Source of the DNA: Microthyrium microscopicum
Lineage: Eukaryota > Ascomycota > Dothideomycetes > Microthyriales > Microthyriaceae
Assembly: GCA_010405405.1 (NCBI GenBank)
Contig: MU004230.1
Location: forward strand, 2,687,744 to 2,751,743
Length of the DNA stretch: 64,000 nucleotides
Reading direction: 5' to 3'
Of this stretch, positions 47,466 through 56,145 are shown in pieces. Positions within the stretch are counted from its first letter, which is position 1. Each line of letters begins with the position of its first letter. The translations under genes and the position numbers were made by a program. The notes under the pieces are model-generated. The model saw only the letters and a program-made list of their open reading frames with translations, did not search any database and was not told the DNA's origin.

Positions 47466-50049
47466 ATGTCCCTCCTTCAGGACGAAGAGTAAGCTGCCCT
47501 CATCCGTTGTGCAACGCTTATGCTAACAGCGCATGTTAGATTTGTGATATACCAATTGCGCACATCTTATTTGTCCCATATCAAAGATGGCGTCGGTGAA
47601 CGTCTTATCAATGTCAACTCCTCCGTCCTAAATAATCCTGCCTTTCGCGCCTCTGGTTGGCAGCATCCTGCCTCTGAAATCAAGCGAACGTATTCCCCGC
47701 CCATCCCTACCGCAGTTACAGCCGAATATTTCCAAGCCCCACGCGTAGCATCACTACCTGGAGGTGCATTTGGCGACGATGAAGATGAAATCGGAATGGT
47801 TACAGGAGGCGGGTCTAACGAGACTGTGGGACCCGCTGTGAATGCGAAGCGTCGAAGACGTAAAGAACAAATGGAACAAGACGACAGTAGTGATCTAAGT
47901 GAAGACAGCGACGAAGACACAGAGGCTAGGTAAATTACGTCTTCTGTGTGAAGGTGGAGCGGAAGCTAATTGACACAGGCCTGTGCAAACCATAAAGTTT
48001 GCAAAAATGCCTTTACGAACTCGCGCTGGATCCTCTCCGACGCAGAGCACGCCGCTAGGGGATGGACCGGCATTGTTAGTCACATCGCCCTCAAGGCCCT
48101 CCGAGATGAGCCAACTACGAAGGGGTTCAGTTGGCGCAGTGGAAGGTATGCGACCGCGGAGAGACACTACGACAACCACAGCTAGCAGCGAATTGTCCTC
48201 TGAGAATGAGGTTGATTCTTCTTTCTTCCAACGGAAACCTGTAAGCTCTAGAAAAGCTCGGATTAGCCAACTCCTTACAGATCGAATACAAGAAGACGAA
48301 CGAGAAGGCAATTCTGATGATGACCCCGGGGCAGAGTCAGACACTACATTATCATCCGTCTTGGAGGGTAGTGCTGACTCTGGATCGATTCTTGGTGGAA
48401 CGAACGAGTTGGGTGTCTCGTTATCTGGAAAGTTGCCCGGTATACCTCAAGCATCGACTCCTCAAAGAGGCTCACCGCGAAAACTTCGTCCTCAGCCTGC
48501 AGCCCTCCAGGCACTTCCTCCCCCACGACCCATTAGCATGATTGCACCGGTCAGTTTGCTGTCCCAGGCACTAAATGCCAAAACGAAAGCCCCGGAGGTA
48601 CCGTTTACGCGATTTGCCACCCTATCAGGAAAGGCTGATACGTCGCCTCTTTACATCAAAATATACGCTGCAAGTTCCAAGGCTCCGGATAAGCCCTTTG
48701 AGATAATGCTTCGAAGAGCTGGTGAAAGTGGTGTGACTACAGTCGCTGATGCAATAGGTTTTGCCTTGTATCGATACAATGAAGAAGCACGTGAACCCAA
48801 GATCACTGGTGATAAGGCCAATGTGAATCGTTGGAACTTTCGCATGGTTGAAGACGGCGAAGTCGAATATGACTTTCCAGCACTAGGTAGGACAAGGGCT
48901 ATCTCCGATTTTACTAGTAACAATAATCGGGGTGCTCGTGGTCGATCTAGAGAAAAGCCATGGGATGAGTTTGCGCTTGTCGAGGCGTCGGAGGGAGAGT
49001 TCAAAGCAAACGAAACAGCGACACCCAAGTATGGCGAAGAGGCATCACCAGCTCTGGAGAGTGTGGCAGAGAATGCTCCACCCCCAGTACCCTCAACACC
49101 GGCGCCTCCGCCTCCTGCAGATTCCCCTTCTCCATCTATCACTCCTTTCCGAAATCCCATCACAGGCCCATCTTTTGCATCATCTGTCTTCCGCAAAGAT
49201 GGCCAACCTCTTGATGCCCCAGTACCTAACGTTGCACGAGCAATTCCGAGAACGGGACTTTCGAAGAACCTCAACATCCGCTTCACAGACGAAAATCTTC
49301 TTACTCGCACCACTCTTATAGAAGTCACAACAGACACGTACATTGCCGAAGTATTCGACCAAGTATGCAAAAGACTCAACCTTGACAAGGCACTTTATGT
49401 GATCAAAGTATCAAACTCCAACACCATTGTTCCCCACGATCGTACAGTGGAAGCTCTAGGCGACCGCTCGGATTTGGATCTACATCGACGACGCTTTGTC
49501 GGCGACGGCTCTTTTGGACTTAGCAACTCTCCTGGCAGTACATCTCCTAATGCGCCTCTTCTTATCGTCCCCAGCGGCAGTGCTGGCACGCCGAAAAAGG
49601 GCAGCAAAAAAACCACTGGCTTCGGATCAATCCCACCATCTCAACGACATGACGCCAGTAGTATTCTATTCAGCGGTGCTCTCGGCATGGGTATGGGAGC
49701 CTTCAAACGCTACCACGTGGTACGCAAACAACCCATGAGCTTCAGCAGCTCCTCCAACCGCATTATCACGCTTGATAGCGAATTTATGCATATCATGCCG
49801 TCCGAAGGGCCCAAGGCCATGTGGGAAACTCAAGGCAAAACGACCACAATTCCATTTTCCAGTGTTGTAGGGTGCAAAGTATCGCGGAAACATGCTCGGA
49901 TGTTTCGCGTAACGGTTTTCAAGGAGCGCGAAAGTAAGAGATATGACTTTGAGGCTTCTAGCCCAGAAGAGTCGATGGAGATTGTGGAAGAGATAAGGAA
50001 GGGTATGGATAGTAGTAAACCTGAACGGTTACTGGAGTTTGGTATGTGA
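47466..50049 (+). CDS. TORC2 subunit SIN1 / AVO1 (CRIM, RBD and PH domains)
   Basis: Exons 47466-47488, 47540-47929 and 47979-50049 give 827 residues. The tiny first exon encodes MSLLQDEE; its join to FVIYQLRTSYLSHIKDG gives the conserved SIN1 N-terminus. Intron 1 has a TGCTAAC branch site. The CRIM domain lies at about 344-480 (LYIKIYAASSKAPDKPFEIML...DGEVEYDFPALGRT). A Ras-binding-like domain follows at about 565-650 (LNIRFTDENLLTRTTLIEV). The C-terminal PH domain is at about 700-815 (FKRYHVVRKQPMSF...MFRVTVFKE). SIN1/AVO1 recruits substrates to TOR complex 2 through CRIM and binds membrane lipids through PH, so the complex acts in plasma-membrane and actin control. Length and domain order are normal for filamentous fungi. 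Confidence 0.95.
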
Positions 50050-50239: not shown

Positions 50240-50638
50240 CTACTCTGTCCTTCCATCGCCTGTCACAAACTCCTCAACAACATAAGATCTCGTCCTCTCC
50301 CTCACCAAAAACTTCCCTTCGTCCTCCACAATCTTCTCTCCACCACCATCACTCGCAATACGCACACCCCAAGCCTGATATGCTTCCAAGGACTCGAAAA
50401 CCAGTTCCGTAATAACGTCAAAGTCAATACCAGCTCCGCCATCGGCCGGAGGAATCATTACCCCAAAGGTACCGGCTGTCTCGTCAAGATGGGTGTAGCG
50501 TCGTTTGTAGACGGGCGGCAGAGTGTCGCCGGATAATGATATGATGAGAGGAAGGTGCTTTGTCTCATAGTAGGAGATGAACTCGCTGGTGCTGAGGGAG
50601 GGAAGCTTGGAGAGGAAGGCGAGGATACGATATGGCAT
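50240..50638 (-). CDS. EthD-domain protein (dimeric alpha/beta barrel)
   Basis: Single exon of 132 residues from ATG 50,638. The N-terminal MPYRILAFLSKLPSLSTSEFISYYETKHLPLI is the EthD fold's first strand-helix with the conserved YYE-x-x-H-x-P pattern. FDVITELVFESLEAYQAW and the closing FLVRERTRSYVVEE match the second half. Proteins of this family are small dimeric ferredoxin-like barrels; some act in polyketide or xenobiotic metabolism, many have unknown substrates. It sits 337 bp from the stop of the kinase-HET gene on the same strand. Confidence 0.85.
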   Translation of the reverse strand: MPYRILAFLSKLPSLSTSEFISYYETKHLPLIISLSGDTLPPVYKRRYTHLDETAGTFGVMIPPADGGAGIDFDVITELVFESLEAYQAWGVRIASDGGGEKIVEDEGKFLVRERTRSYVVEEFVTGDGRTE

Positions 50639-50975
50639 CGTGGTGGTATGTTTTGACCCAATATCTGTTTGCTGTATTTATTGTATGGTATCTGGAAAAT
50701 GATGATTGTGATATGTGGGAGATCTGTTGATACGATAGATTATTGAAAGTTGTGTATATTCTGCACGGCGTACTCCGTCCGTACTGTACATCACAATCCT
50801 TAGTGGATCCAATCACATATATCATGCGTCTGGTATCGTCCCTCAACATCGTTCCATTCAATTACGCATTGTATGTCATTACAGCGTTATCCAGTATATA
50901 CAATATAAGCAAAAAAATTCCGCACGAACTTCATTTTGCCAAAACTCTGTTCCGTCGTGTTATCATATAATCAAA
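50639..50975. other. Intergenic
   Basis: AT-rich spacer between the EthD gene and the stop codon of the kinase-HET gene. No feature is recognised. Confidence 0.4.
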
Positions 50976-53900
50976 TCAAACCAGGGTGATAGTCTGCATA
51001 CTAGCGGACAGTCCAGAGATACGCTCGAAATCATCTAGAAGAACGAAGCCCACTCGCTCAAATTTTCCTGTTGATAGCTCTCGTAGAACAAGACAGCCGA
51101 GGGTCATAGAATCTTCGAATTCTCCAACCACAAGAACGCATATTTTCGAGCCAGGAGCTATGTAATCGACTCCCTGCTTCGAGAGGACGTAATCGGGTCG
51201 TAGCTGTTGCCTTCGAGAGCCATGAAACTCAAGTTCATAGAAGTGTGGTTCTGATTCTAGTCTGCCACTGTAGCATAGTATTGCTGGAATTAGGTGAGCA
51301 GTAATACGCAGGCTGGCATACGCCCAGTCCCCAGCCTCGGTCAAGCCAGTGGGCAAACCTTCCAAGTTCAAAAGTTTCAGCTGAGGAGTTAGGGGCCTCG
51401 CTTCGAATTTAACATGGGCATCAATGGACGCCCACGACCAACTTGGACATCGATATTGGGTAGACCTCCTCGAACATGGTTCAGGACACGACCATGAAAG
51501 ATCTGACTGAAAGGATTCTGCCCAAAGACCTGCTAAATAAGTGCCGCCATTCTGTATTTGCATATGTCGGGCAAGACCAGCCACAGCTGGCAGCTTATCA
51601 TTCTCGTCAGTCAGCAATCGTGACGAGTATTCTGAAACTAAGTTATGCCAGAAGAACGTAGCATCTCGATTGCTATGATGAGTCTCGAGAGATCGTGGTG
51701 AGCTACATTCACAGGAGAAGAACTCTCTGCACTCGAATGAAACTTCATTGGCCGTGAAGTATAGCTTCCTGGTAGACAAAAGCCCTTCCTGAAACGTCCA
51801 CGCTCGCCTCATCCAAGGATTATCCTTCGGCCGACTTTCGGTAAAGTCACAAATGCCAGACAAAGAATGTGAGATATGTGGGATCTTCTTCCGAGCGCAG
51901 ATTTGGAACGGTTGTATCTCTCGAGCAAAGTGTCCTGAAGTATCAGTGGCAAAAATTCCACTCGATGAATCCGTGGATGATGCGGCGACAATCGTGACAT
52001 ACGCGTTTGAATATATTTTATCCATCCTTGAGATTTCTTGCTGCATATCTTCTGGATCATCTTGCAAGATACACAAAGCATCTATCCAAATATAGCTCAG
52101 CCCGATGTAATGTGTAATGGTAATTGCGTCTTCTAAGGTTCGAGGGAGGGTGCTCCTGGCGATACCTCTTGTGTGTGCCGAAATTGTAGCCTTAGTTGTC
52201 CTCAGTGTATCACCACTACCCCAGACATAACTCAAGGCGGAATACCGAGCTTGGACTCCCTCGCTCTCAAAGACGGAGACATGTTCATCACTAATGTACA
52301 GAACTCGACTAGGCAGTGTCGTTAGTCGAGAAGGTTGGCAGGCTTGGTGATAGGAATCACAAGTATCTATCCATTGCCTTGATTTTTCCAGGGCATTGAA
52401 GGAAGATGTATCCCCGGTGGTAAGATTTCCACTCCTAACTCCAGGAATATCCAGCTGGGGACTTTGACCTAAGGGCGGTGTTCGTAAGCTTCAGTGTTAG
52501 GAAGACCCAAATCACCAAGACGTGACTTACCTGGTATCGTAAAGAACTCGAGAATAATTGGCAGCTCATCATGCCCGAACCTGAATTGCCAGTCTGGGAT
52601 TTGCCATGAAAGCATGCCAGTTGACGGCATCTCTCCTGAAAGAACTACACTGAGACTCCTGCCGAGCAAGAAGCAACAATGGCATCCAGATATACGCTCA
52701 AAATCGATCTCTTCGGGTTCAAGCTCTAATGATTCAAGACGGATGAGCCAGGAAGTACCTGGACTTAGCTGTTCCAGATCTTGGCATAATTGGCATCGTC
52801 GCGAAGTTTTTGTCACCATCGTTTCATGGCAGCAAGAGTTTGGTCTAAACTCACTCAAGACATCACAGGATTTAGGCCTACCGTTGGGTGAAATACGGAG
52901 CATGTCTTGCAACATATCAACTTGACGGGAGTTAAGCCAGTCAGTTTCGGGGGGCTTGTCTCGTCGCAAAACGCCTCTATATGTACCTAAAGCGTCGTTG
53001 ACTTGGTCCAGACAGCGCCAGTAAGCCTTTCCAGAAGTTTGTGACGTGTTCAGGCTGTCTGAGAACAGCAAGGAGTGCAGACTATCGACACTTTGTCCAG
53101 CCATGACATATGCCATCTCAAAGTAGACACATCCAAGTGAAAATATGTCAAACGCGGCTCCTTGAAATCCATGAGTGGTCGATTCTGGAGCAGCATACAG
53201 GGGTGTATGTCCTCGAGGTCGTGAAATGGCCGGTTTCGAATTAGGAGAAGAAACAGAAGCTCCAAAATCAGAAATCAGTAATCTGGGGACTCTGTTCCGG
53301 TCTAAGTACATGAGAATATTTGCAGGCTTGATATCAAAGTGGAATATGTGCTGGCGATGAATCGAGTCCAAGCCAGACGCGAGGCAGCCGAGCCATCTCT
53401 TCAGTGTCACTGCTTGCACTCCTACGGCCGTCCTAGCTCGTAAGTAATCATGCAATGTACATTCAGCAACTGGTGTCATGAGAAGAGAGCATTCTCGTTG
53501 TTCTAGGAGCATGCCAACGCCTTGTACAACATGTTGATGTTTCAATTGACCAAGTAGATGCATTTCCCTTAGTGTATTGACTGATTGGGTGCTTGACAAA
53601 CAATTGGTCCTTTTTCGAGCGATAGTTTGAGCGAGACCGTCAATCTGAATTTCTTCGACGTAGCCAGTTGCGCCTCTCCCGAGCGTACGAATCCGACTCC
53701 AATTGTAGCTGAGTATTGGCTCGACATCAAATCCACCAGACGTGTCGTGGTACCAGAAGGCAACGGCCACTCCGACCTGGGATGATAGCGACAGCCTTGC
53801 AGGCAAATCTGGCTTGATAACTCGTGAAAGCGGGCTAGATTCGAGTGAGGATACGTGCCTAATGATCTTTGATACATCATCAAAGCCAAAGATTGTTGGA

Positions 53901-56145
53901 ACTCTATACTTTTCTTGCAAGGCAAATCCAATGATGGCTTTAAAGTACATCTTGACCTGGAGCATCAAGTGTGCGTACGCAGTAGTTGTTGACCAATGGT
54001 TTGAATCTTGGACCTCAACAGAAAGAAAAGAGTTCGACTTTGGGGTAGTTGTTCCGTATCGCACGGCTTCTTGACTTTCGGTACGGCTATGATGATCCCC
54101 ATGGTCAGTACTATCGTCGTCACTGTCGCTATCATCGTCGCTTTCGTCAATGCTCTCGTCGTCGCTGTCGTCGTAGCTTTCATTGTCGCTGGCCCGGTCA
54201 TTCTCGTCGTCGCTCTCATTTACGTCTTGGTCGCGTTGGGTGTCGCCATCATGGTCGCTGGCATCTTCTTCGCTATCATGGCTATCTTCATCCTCATTAT
54301 CTTCAGAGTACTTTCCCACAGTTGACGATGGTCCCTCCCACGGGTCCCGCCACTGGTCCATTCTGAACCTGTCTGTGAAATGCTCGCCAATATGCTCGAT
54401 TCTTTTGACCCATCCCCGTATTTGATCTCCGCAAAAGCCGCACTTCTCGTCAAAGATCACCGGTGTAGAGAAGCTCCATTTCTTTTTCAAATTGTTATCA
54501 AATGGTATAGTTGCATGAATGCTTTTGCAGTGCTGTTCCAATTTATCTGCACGAATAAAAACTCGTCCATTTTTCCCTTGATCCAAAGAAAGCTTCCTAT
54601 CGCAACATGGTATTCTGTTGCCGTGCTCTGACCTGATGTGGTGCTCGTCAGGCCTCTTTTTCGAACAGTACGAACAAGTATTCTTCCAAGTAGAACCATG
54701 GTTACATAACCAAGCTTTCTGCGGTCGATTCAGGTTTTCGTGCCGTTCCCAATCGCTTCTTTTCGTAAAGGTTTTACCACAGCACGAAGTACACGAGTAC
54801 ATTTTGTCGGGATCCCAATCCTTCGACCGATGTGCATCTTTCTGCGAATCACTGAGGGATTCATCACAGTGCTTTCGGCGCGCAGGTAATCTTTCTGCGG
54901 CGCGATACAGGAGTGAGGCCAAATCTTCAGAGCTGGCTGAAGTAGAAGTTCGTGTCGCAACGTCCCCTATCGGTTGTGAATGTTGTTGATTCGCAAACCA
55001 GTCATGTACTATTGTCCTCGGAAGGTCGGTGAGCATGGCCAATGCGCGTATCTTTCTGCACGGTGGGAATCTAATCTCTGGATTGTTCCGCTGCCAAACC
55101 CGAAAATGTTCTATACATTGCTCAGTGACTACAGGTGGCGATATCTTTACCGCTGGGTCTTTCTTTGGTTTCTTTTTAGGACGACCCGACTGTGTGCCAA
55201 TGTCGCTAACTCCAGTTCTTTTCCGTTTCTCGCTTTGTCGTTTCTGGTTCACTTTCTTTGAGGAGCTATTGTGATGACGGTATCGTTGAGGCTCAAATGC
55301 AGTTTGAAACTTTGAAACCGATTTCGACATTTCCGTATTCAACCTCGTATTGAACCTAGAGCTATTCAGGGTAGGCTGTAAATATGGTTGCTGTTATCAA
55401 GTCAGATCGGCACACTTCCTCCAAGGTCGAAAATATGTCTCACCTGGAATTGGTTTGATGGGGTAAGCCAAAAGTCTGGCGAGGTCGGGGCCATCCACTG
55501 ATTCTGTATAGAATCGGGCATATTTGTTGTGGTGCTAGGCTGCATGGTGATCATTTAGAAGCTAGACTATTGCTTGATCATGATAGAAGCTCTCACAGTT
55601 GAAATTGTAGGTTTCTGTCCATCTATGGAGGACAGGTATCCATGTGAAGTTGCCGACGAAGCCTAATCACAATTAGATCCGCGATTGATAGACCAGTTGT
55701 TTTGCCATAGAGCTGTACATAGGATGTAGATACTTACGATCGTTTGTGGTGGTGTTAAATTCCTGATATTGTGATTTGGGTAATACCGATTCTCAGACTC
55801 ATGATTTAAGCTCGTTGGCCGACGTTGCCCCATTGAACCAGTAAAGCTTCCAGCATAGCTTTGTGCCACATCATGAATCAATGGGGTACGGTGTGGCAGT
55901 CCATCCAGAGAATATCTGTTGATCTGAGGATCCGCAAAATTCAACGAGCTGTTAGACGACCATCGAGTATCATAATCTGCAAGTGAGGCTGAACGATAGT
56001 TCTCAGACCCAGGAATTGGAGGACTTTGTTGAAGACTGTTCAGATTGGTGCCATATATGCCAGTCAGGGCCCATTCCTGCGAGCCTGATGAGTCGAAGCT
56101 CGGCGGAACTCTAGCATTGTTAGGTTGATTATCTGAAGGCTCCAT
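50976..56145 (-). CDS. Homeodomain-like / C2H2 / protein kinase / HET fusion protein
   Basis: Five exons, complement of 55738-56145, 55597-55662, 55444-55539, 52531-55375 and 50976-52468, give 1635 residues; introns are 75, 57, 68 and 62 bp with GTAAGT or GTGAGA donors. Residues 1-235 are disordered. A basic, NLS-like patch (KRQSEKRKR, GRPKKKPKK) precedes a homeodomain-like helix set at about 274-325 (...VHDWFANQQ). Zn-finger-like segments follow (C385/C388/H402, then CSYC and CGFC). An Asp/Ser/Glu run spans about 549-626. The kinase domain covers about 749-1033: LGRGATG (755-761), K778, HFD with D871, DFG D893, APE 919-921. A Cys-rich linker (CQLCQDLE...GCHCCFLLG) leads to HET at about 1213-1365 (YSALSYVWG, IWIDALCILQDD, WTFQEG). 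The kinase looks active. HET domains trigger incompatibility cell death; an immune-receptor-like role is inference. Confidence 0.85.

Follow-up and report, generated by a model that had tools for sequence, protein, structure and literature searches.

The locus described here lies in a 64,000-nucleotide stretch of DNA from the ascomycete Microthyrium microscopicum (assembly GCA_010405405.1, contig MU004230.1, positions 2,687,744 to 2,751,743), which was analysed as a whole and is called the window below. It is occupied by a minus-strand gene, running from position 56145 to 50976, whose predicted product carries a front resembling a transcription factor, a protein kinase and a C-terminal HET domain. 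Five exons join in frame and end in a single terminal stop; they are separated by four GT-AG introns of 75, 57, 68 (or 53) and 62 nucleotides (nt), the protein being 1635 amino acids (aa) long with the intron 3 acceptor at 55376 or 1640 aa with the acceptor at 55391, both of which keep the frame. The five-exon, in-frame gene that a model had proposed from the sequence letters (the original prediction) is thus confirmed, with kinase and HET joined in one frame; exons 1–3 and the start codon are predicted, with the gene model as their sole basis. The features are the following.

50976..56145, minus strand: whole gene model, five exons joined in frame
55738..56145, minus strand: exon 1, low-complexity N-terminus (model only)
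55597..55662, minus strand: exon 2 (model only)
55444..55539, minus strand: exon 3 (model only)
52531..55375 (or 55390), minus strand: exon 4, stop-free, with basic patch, homeodomain-like segment, fingers, acidic run, kinase and pre-HET segment
55160..55243, minus strand: basic patch resembling a nuclear localization signal, residues 235–262 (KRKR at 240, KKK at 257)
54974..55138, minus strand: homeodomain-like segment, residues 270–324, three predicted helices, WFAN kept
54338..54814, minus strand: zinc-finger module, residues 378–536 (C385, C389, H402, C414, C424, C427, H472, H477, C502, C505, H518, H522)
54056..54310, minus strand: acidic run, residues 546–630, 47% Asp/Glu
52856..53698, minus strand: protein kinase domain, residues 750–1030, non-RD (HFD), by Pfam Pkinase
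52532..52804, minus strand: Cys-rich pre-HET segment, residues 1048–1138, common to the related proteins P0012 and P0013
52469..52530, minus strand: intron 4, 62 nt, GT-AG; its retention would make the frame stop after the kinase and pre-HET segment
50976..52468, minus strand: exon 5, HET domain and C-terminal part
51786..52244, minus strand: HET domain, residues 1214–1366, by Pfam HET and motifs

The kinase is recognized by Pfam Pkinase with 110.8 bits against a cut-off of 31.7, and the key residues claimed for it by the original prediction are all present (K778, E794, D871, N876 and D893), as is the APE motif at 919, the catalytic loop reading HFD instead of HRD. By profile and catalytic residues the protein belongs to the eukaryotic protein kinases (PF00069), and activity is predicted for it. 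An alignment of related kinases (A2, 13 rows) shows no variation in the catalytic K, E, D, N and D columns, and a non-RD loop is found in 13 of the 15 members of the family treated below. A tree of 73 kinase domains, built with 40 of 88 other kinases and without 12 domains shorter than 170 aa, groups all 15 family members in a single set of 17 rows that is moderately supported (88 in the Shimodaira–Hasegawa-like approximate likelihood ratio test, SH-aLRT). The two remaining rows of this set are P0003 from Diaporthe amygdali, which pairs its kinase with an Hsp70-like part, and P0097, which has a second kinase domain; both are without HET. In plants, non-RD kinases are linked to innate immunity.

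The HET domain (PF06985) scores 115.1 bits against a cut-off of 22.5 and holds the three core motifs that had been claimed, YSALSYVWG at 1214, YIWIDALC at 1264 and RRAWTFQE at 1359. A chance origin of the fusion was ruled out: the 948-codon exon matches the kinase profile with 111 bits, and the next exon matches HET with 115 bits. A Pfam scan of the whole protein at E ≤ 1 gave rows for HET, Pkinase and PK_Tyr_Ser-Thr, the last overlapping the kinase, and for nothing else. HET is reported to be death-inducing and remotely TIR-like, with an unknown mode of action (PMC10890737; PMC12881547), and it is often the sole identifiable domain of its protein (PMC10197012), so that the pairing with NACHT, ankyrin or WD repeats assumed in the original prediction is not the norm. 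Of the 212 proteins compared, another 24 matched a profile of the Cys-rich segment in front of HET at E < 1; all are HET proteins and the matches are weak, the best being P0047 at 13.7 bits, with the solitary HET protein P0019 at 8.5 bits.

The kinase, which ends near residue 1030, continues without a stop into the CxxC...GCxCC pre-HET segment of the same exon 4, and the first ATG of the HET frame falls at residue 1280, past HET motif 2. The two closest relatives, the metagenome proteins P0012 and P0013, share the front, the kinase and the Cys-rich segment, each with 40% identity to the row of the Microthyrium protein in a second alignment (A1). Their likeness to it stops at the start of intron 4 (LEFFTLP compared with LEFFTIP here) and the predicted proteins end 57 and 10 residues past that motif, which we read as the probable result of a gene caller that ignores introns having met one at this position. 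The locus is taken as a single gene because there is no stop between kinase and pre-HET segment, because the ATG of the HET frame comes late, and because the join is repeated in P0012 and P0013. The 62-nt intron, proposed as the crucial join, has a lesser role, since kinase and pre-HET segment already share one exon and the intron merely parts that segment from HET. Two adjacent genes, one for the homeobox, C2H2 and kinase parts and the other for HET, or an artefact of the gene model, are very improbable. The five-exon model is drawn from sequence alone, and Met1043 stands five residues before SRRC, near the start of solitary HET proteins such as P0019, both of which would suit such a reading; however, it was rejected on the stop-free exon 4, the ATG lying inside HET and the join kept in P0012 and P0013, which moreover lack a Met where this protein has Met1043, and other annotators have recorded proteins of identical order from named fungi. 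Speculatively, a transcript retaining intron 4 might yield a HET-less kinase that could serve as an off form.

The front of the protein was described in the original prediction as homeodomain-like and zinc-finger-like, with a basic patch and an acidic run. The latter two are present at residues 235–262 and 546–630, and the former description is upheld by profiles, homeodomain chains in the PDB and invariant Cys/His residues, though Pfam misses both domains (no homeodomain or C2H2 row at E ≤ 1). Searched alone against the PDB at E ≤ 10, a 64-residue segment retrieved 14 rows, of which 13 are homeodomain chains and one is a dynein (best E 0.011). A six-member profile gave 83 rows at E ≤ 10 with a best E of 6.6e-5; among the 60 listed, one is clearly not a homeodomain (a viral chain, E 0.4), and a ceramide-synthase-type chain at E 0.23 bears a homeobox-like domain. 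The search with the segment alone, and another without P0002, were made because P0002 by itself matches Pfam Homeodomain (18.5 bits, cut-off 22.9); at E ≤ 1 the profile lacking P0002 still gave 23 homeodomains among 25 rows, with a best E of 8.4e-4.

The same genome holds a free transcription-factor-like gene, L032, with a clear Homeobox_KN domain (64 bits). The family profile matches its finger module at 122.7 bits and its homeodomain, in the correct place, at 11.8 bits; a profile of the homeodomain columns only scores 9.1 bits on this homeodomain, a value reached by none of 2000 shuffles of L032 (best 4.7). Chance as the source of the homeodomain resemblance was ruled out by these shuffles and the PDB searches. 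Structure prediction, proposed earlier for the homeodomain-like region, gave three helices in an AlphaFold model with a predicted local distance difference test score (pLDDT) of about 72–82, in a model of exon 4 that has a mean pLDDT of 59.7 and is usable in parts only. After WFAN the segment reads QQHS where L032 has TRRR, and classical DNA contact therefore looks lost; by inspection, the basic residues of the recognition helix appear to be gone. The fingers are better kept. Ten Cys/His are invariant in all 10 rows of A1, which includes P0001 and P0096 and omits P0015 because of its broken finger part, and all 12 are invariant in the eight chosen rows of a finger alignment (A5) made without P0015, P0001 (part of the module gone) and P0096 (CGFG at the last pair). 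The first unit is spaced C-x3-C-x12-H-x11-C and the last C-x2-C-x12-H-x3-H. The likeliest reading of the front is a module derived from a transcription factor, in which the homeodomain has probably eroded and the fingers have been kept.

A homologue search with the kinase-HET half scored 7994 candidates and returned at least 1290 proteins at E ≤ 0.001; Pkinase and HET occur together in 10 of the 120 listed. The architecture search proposed in the original prediction thus found relatives with the same order: the homeodomain-finger profile matches seven of the ten (P0014, P0015, P0017, P0020, P0050, P0096 and P0114) and has no match in P0018, P0026 and P0058. Five of the seven (P0017, P0020, P0050, P0096 and P0114) were built into the profile and match by construction; the independent matches are P0014 and P0015, with 48 and 46 bits. 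The full domain order is seen in those five and also in P0015, with its broken finger part. The named fungi with Pkinase and HET in one protein are Halenospora varia (Leotiomycetes), Eremomyces bilateralis (Dothideomycetes) and Bisporella sp. PMI_857. We propose the homeodomain/finger-kinase-HET proteins as a family, with the same order in independent genomes. A search made earlier, using most of the protein as query, had given 11 proteins, none listed with both Pkinase and HET, and a search based on A1 gave 82 rows, mostly ordinary kinases. Beside these, P0132 and P0133 carry the finger module and no kinase; residues 838–975 of P0132, from a metagenome, match PigL_N, perhaps because the gene caller fused two genes. 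In P0001 the place that HET takes in others gives an aspartyl-protease-like match (residues 1099–1178; 15.9 bits against a cut-off of 28.2), a possible C-terminal swap.

At least 153 HET matches were found in the Microthyrium genome, and 150 of the 153 were cross-listed with 138 kinase matches for a kinase upstream on the same strand within 2 kb. Three loci have this arrangement: the gene described here, L060 and L061. L060 (L060:2129-5302; G000:C6:2387128-2390301) is a single kinase-HET frame of 1057 aa, non-RD (HGDLK). At L061 (L061:1801-5701; G000:C5) kinase and HET frames are parted by a stop and frame changes, by an intron or by decay, and the HET is close to that of L060. The finger profile has no match in the frames of either locus, and their HETs form a separate clade in the HET trees. 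Further same-strand HET/kinase pairs lie 2.6 kb (C4) and 3.3 kb (C6) apart, the C6 pair in separate frames. All three kinases of the kinase-HET loci are non-RD, compared with two of 34 other distinct catalytic loops (Fisher p 0.0013, from a non-random sample: the 37 distinct loops come from the 138 kinase matches, at loci picked for kinase likeness, HET proximity or top rank).

The history of the HET domains was followed in a tree of 45 HETs, built without the long-branch fusions P0026, P0058, P0096 and P0114 and with 28 solitary HETs and nine own-genome rows; another HET tree dropped two near-copies and left out 55 of 106 solitary HETs. On the 45-HET tree the HET of this gene, that of P0050 and the clade of P0014, P0015, P0017, P0018 and P0020 need three changes, and they come together in none of 200 bootstrap trees. 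Forcing all seven together was rejected (p 0.0235) and forcing the Microthyrium HET with the five-member clade was not (p 0.092). The junctions also differ, a Cys-rich segment standing before HET in this protein, P0012 and P0013, whereas P0015, P0017 and P0020 run directly from kinase to HET. These observations suggest that HET may have been attached repeatedly to this kinase lineage, the clade tests being mixed.

A one-protein cell-death switch, in which a bait derived from a transcription factor and a non-RD kinase would control a HET effector, is the reading we prefer, at about even confidence. The homeobox-C2H2-derived module, with its homeodomain eroded and its fingers kept, would serve as bait or sensor; the adjoining non-RD kinase would relay or gate the signal, and the C-terminal HET would carry out regulated cell death, or some defence response akin to it. 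An altered bait, or a partner bound to it (a non-self allele or a pathogen factor), would activate the kinase, and HET would then be freed or clustered. In the original prediction the kinase was a phosphorylation-linked trigger, and the protein might sense interference with kinases. Kinase activity, killing by HET, the direction of control, the ligand and a nuclear place are all inferred.

Several observations weigh against such a switch. The kinases of P0012, one of the closest relatives, and P0096 are HRD (two of the 15 family members), and in P0012 and P0013 HET is placed beyond the intron by inference and is not seen in the predicted proteins. Front and kinase can exist without HET, because P0001 (Lambiella insularis, Lecanoromycetes) and P0002 (Ciborinia camelliae, Leotiomycetes) have both and no HET. 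The HET match of P0096 is partial (100 of 146 positions), and P0096, P0114 and P0026 showed no HET motif 3. Foldseek with the HET model found no PDB match at E ≤ 0.001, and so lends no structural support to a catalytic mechanism; Foldseek and VIA-align together gave no trustworthy fold match and no TIR among the 50 rows listed by either, a result that excludes nothing, and the HET profile against the PDB gave a single row that is not credible (E 0.72). The neighbourhood in the window shows no defence cluster by Pfam, which was run on frames of at least 280 aa and the EthD frame. Lastly, in Podospora anserina four of 132 HET genes are incompatibility genes (PMC10890737).

Two other explanations were weighed. 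The protein may be an integrated decoy, in which the transcription-factor and kinase parts are baits rather than signalling machinery, mimicking targets of pathogens or rivals, and tampering with them releases HET. The homeodomain eroded despite kept fingers, the similar front of the free gene L032 in the same genome and the existence of kinase-HET fusions of another form all fit a decoy, but the catalytic residues invariant in the 13 rows of A2 would be needless in a pure one, and we consider this reading rather unlikely. Improbable, in our judgement, is a developmental or stress regulator, a nuclear kinase in which HET would be a protein-interaction module rather than a killer. Its nuclear-type front with the basic patch, the HET-less P0001 and P0002 and the small share of HET genes that are incompatibility genes (PMC10890737) agree with this role, yet the protein has all three HET core motifs, and the kinases to which several lineages have joined HET are mostly non-RD. 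On the switch reading the same polypeptide would carry both the kinase, as candidate trigger, and the HET effector, so that point mutants could test how the two are linked. It can be proposed, tentatively and with less assurance than the switch itself, that such proteins form an undescribed class of immune switches outside the NOD-like receptors (NLRs), that integrate a bait, captured from a transcription factor, and a trigger, the non-RD kinase, with a TIR-like HET death effector, kinase and HET having been joined more than once. This suggests that fungi may build immune-type receptors outside the NLR plan from transcription-factor parts, an arrangement comparable to plant integrated decoys.

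Pfam on eight other frames of the window identified SIN1/AVO1, EthD, PRCC, AA9, GH47, a short-chain dehydrogenase and an ankyrin protein, one frame being without a match. The downstream neighbours of the gene, at 47974–50049 and 50240–50677, are the SIN1/AVO1 gene, which encodes a TORC2 component, and the EthD-domain gene. The window contains no tRNA and no Rfam match above the gathering score.

Among known systems, tol, het-6 and pin-c (PMC10890737; PMC10197012) also have a HET with the same motifs outside the NLR plan, and the N-terminal parts of solitary HET proteins weakly resemble the Cys-rich pre-HET segment described here; unlike them, the Microthyrium protein has a kinase and a transcription-factor-derived module before HET. 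The HET NOD-like receptors HET-E, HET-D and HET-R likewise unite HET, within one protein, with a part that senses or controls, but their HET is N-terminal, whereas here it is C-terminal and no NACHT, NB-ARC or repeats are found (Pfam, E ≤ 1). The BH form of het-B (PMC10890737), a HET-lectin, is another non-NLR HET with a second domain, the partner having a lectin fold there and being a kinase here. Pkinase and HET have been listed separately among the N-terminal domains of NLRs (PMC4986451; PMC9815663). No kinase-HET fusion is described in the literature searched, as far as the accessible parts of these texts go and with subscription papers and preprints outside the coverage. The architecture, which the original prediction had called undescribed or rare, may therefore be undescribed, but it is not a one-off, given the relatives that share its order. 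Closer to home, L032 has a homeodomain followed by the same finger module, to which the present protein adds kinase and HET while its homeodomain is eroded, and P0002 and P0001 have the same front, acidic stretch and kinase set but lack the HET of the Microthyrium protein. The parts are known and their combination appears to be new.

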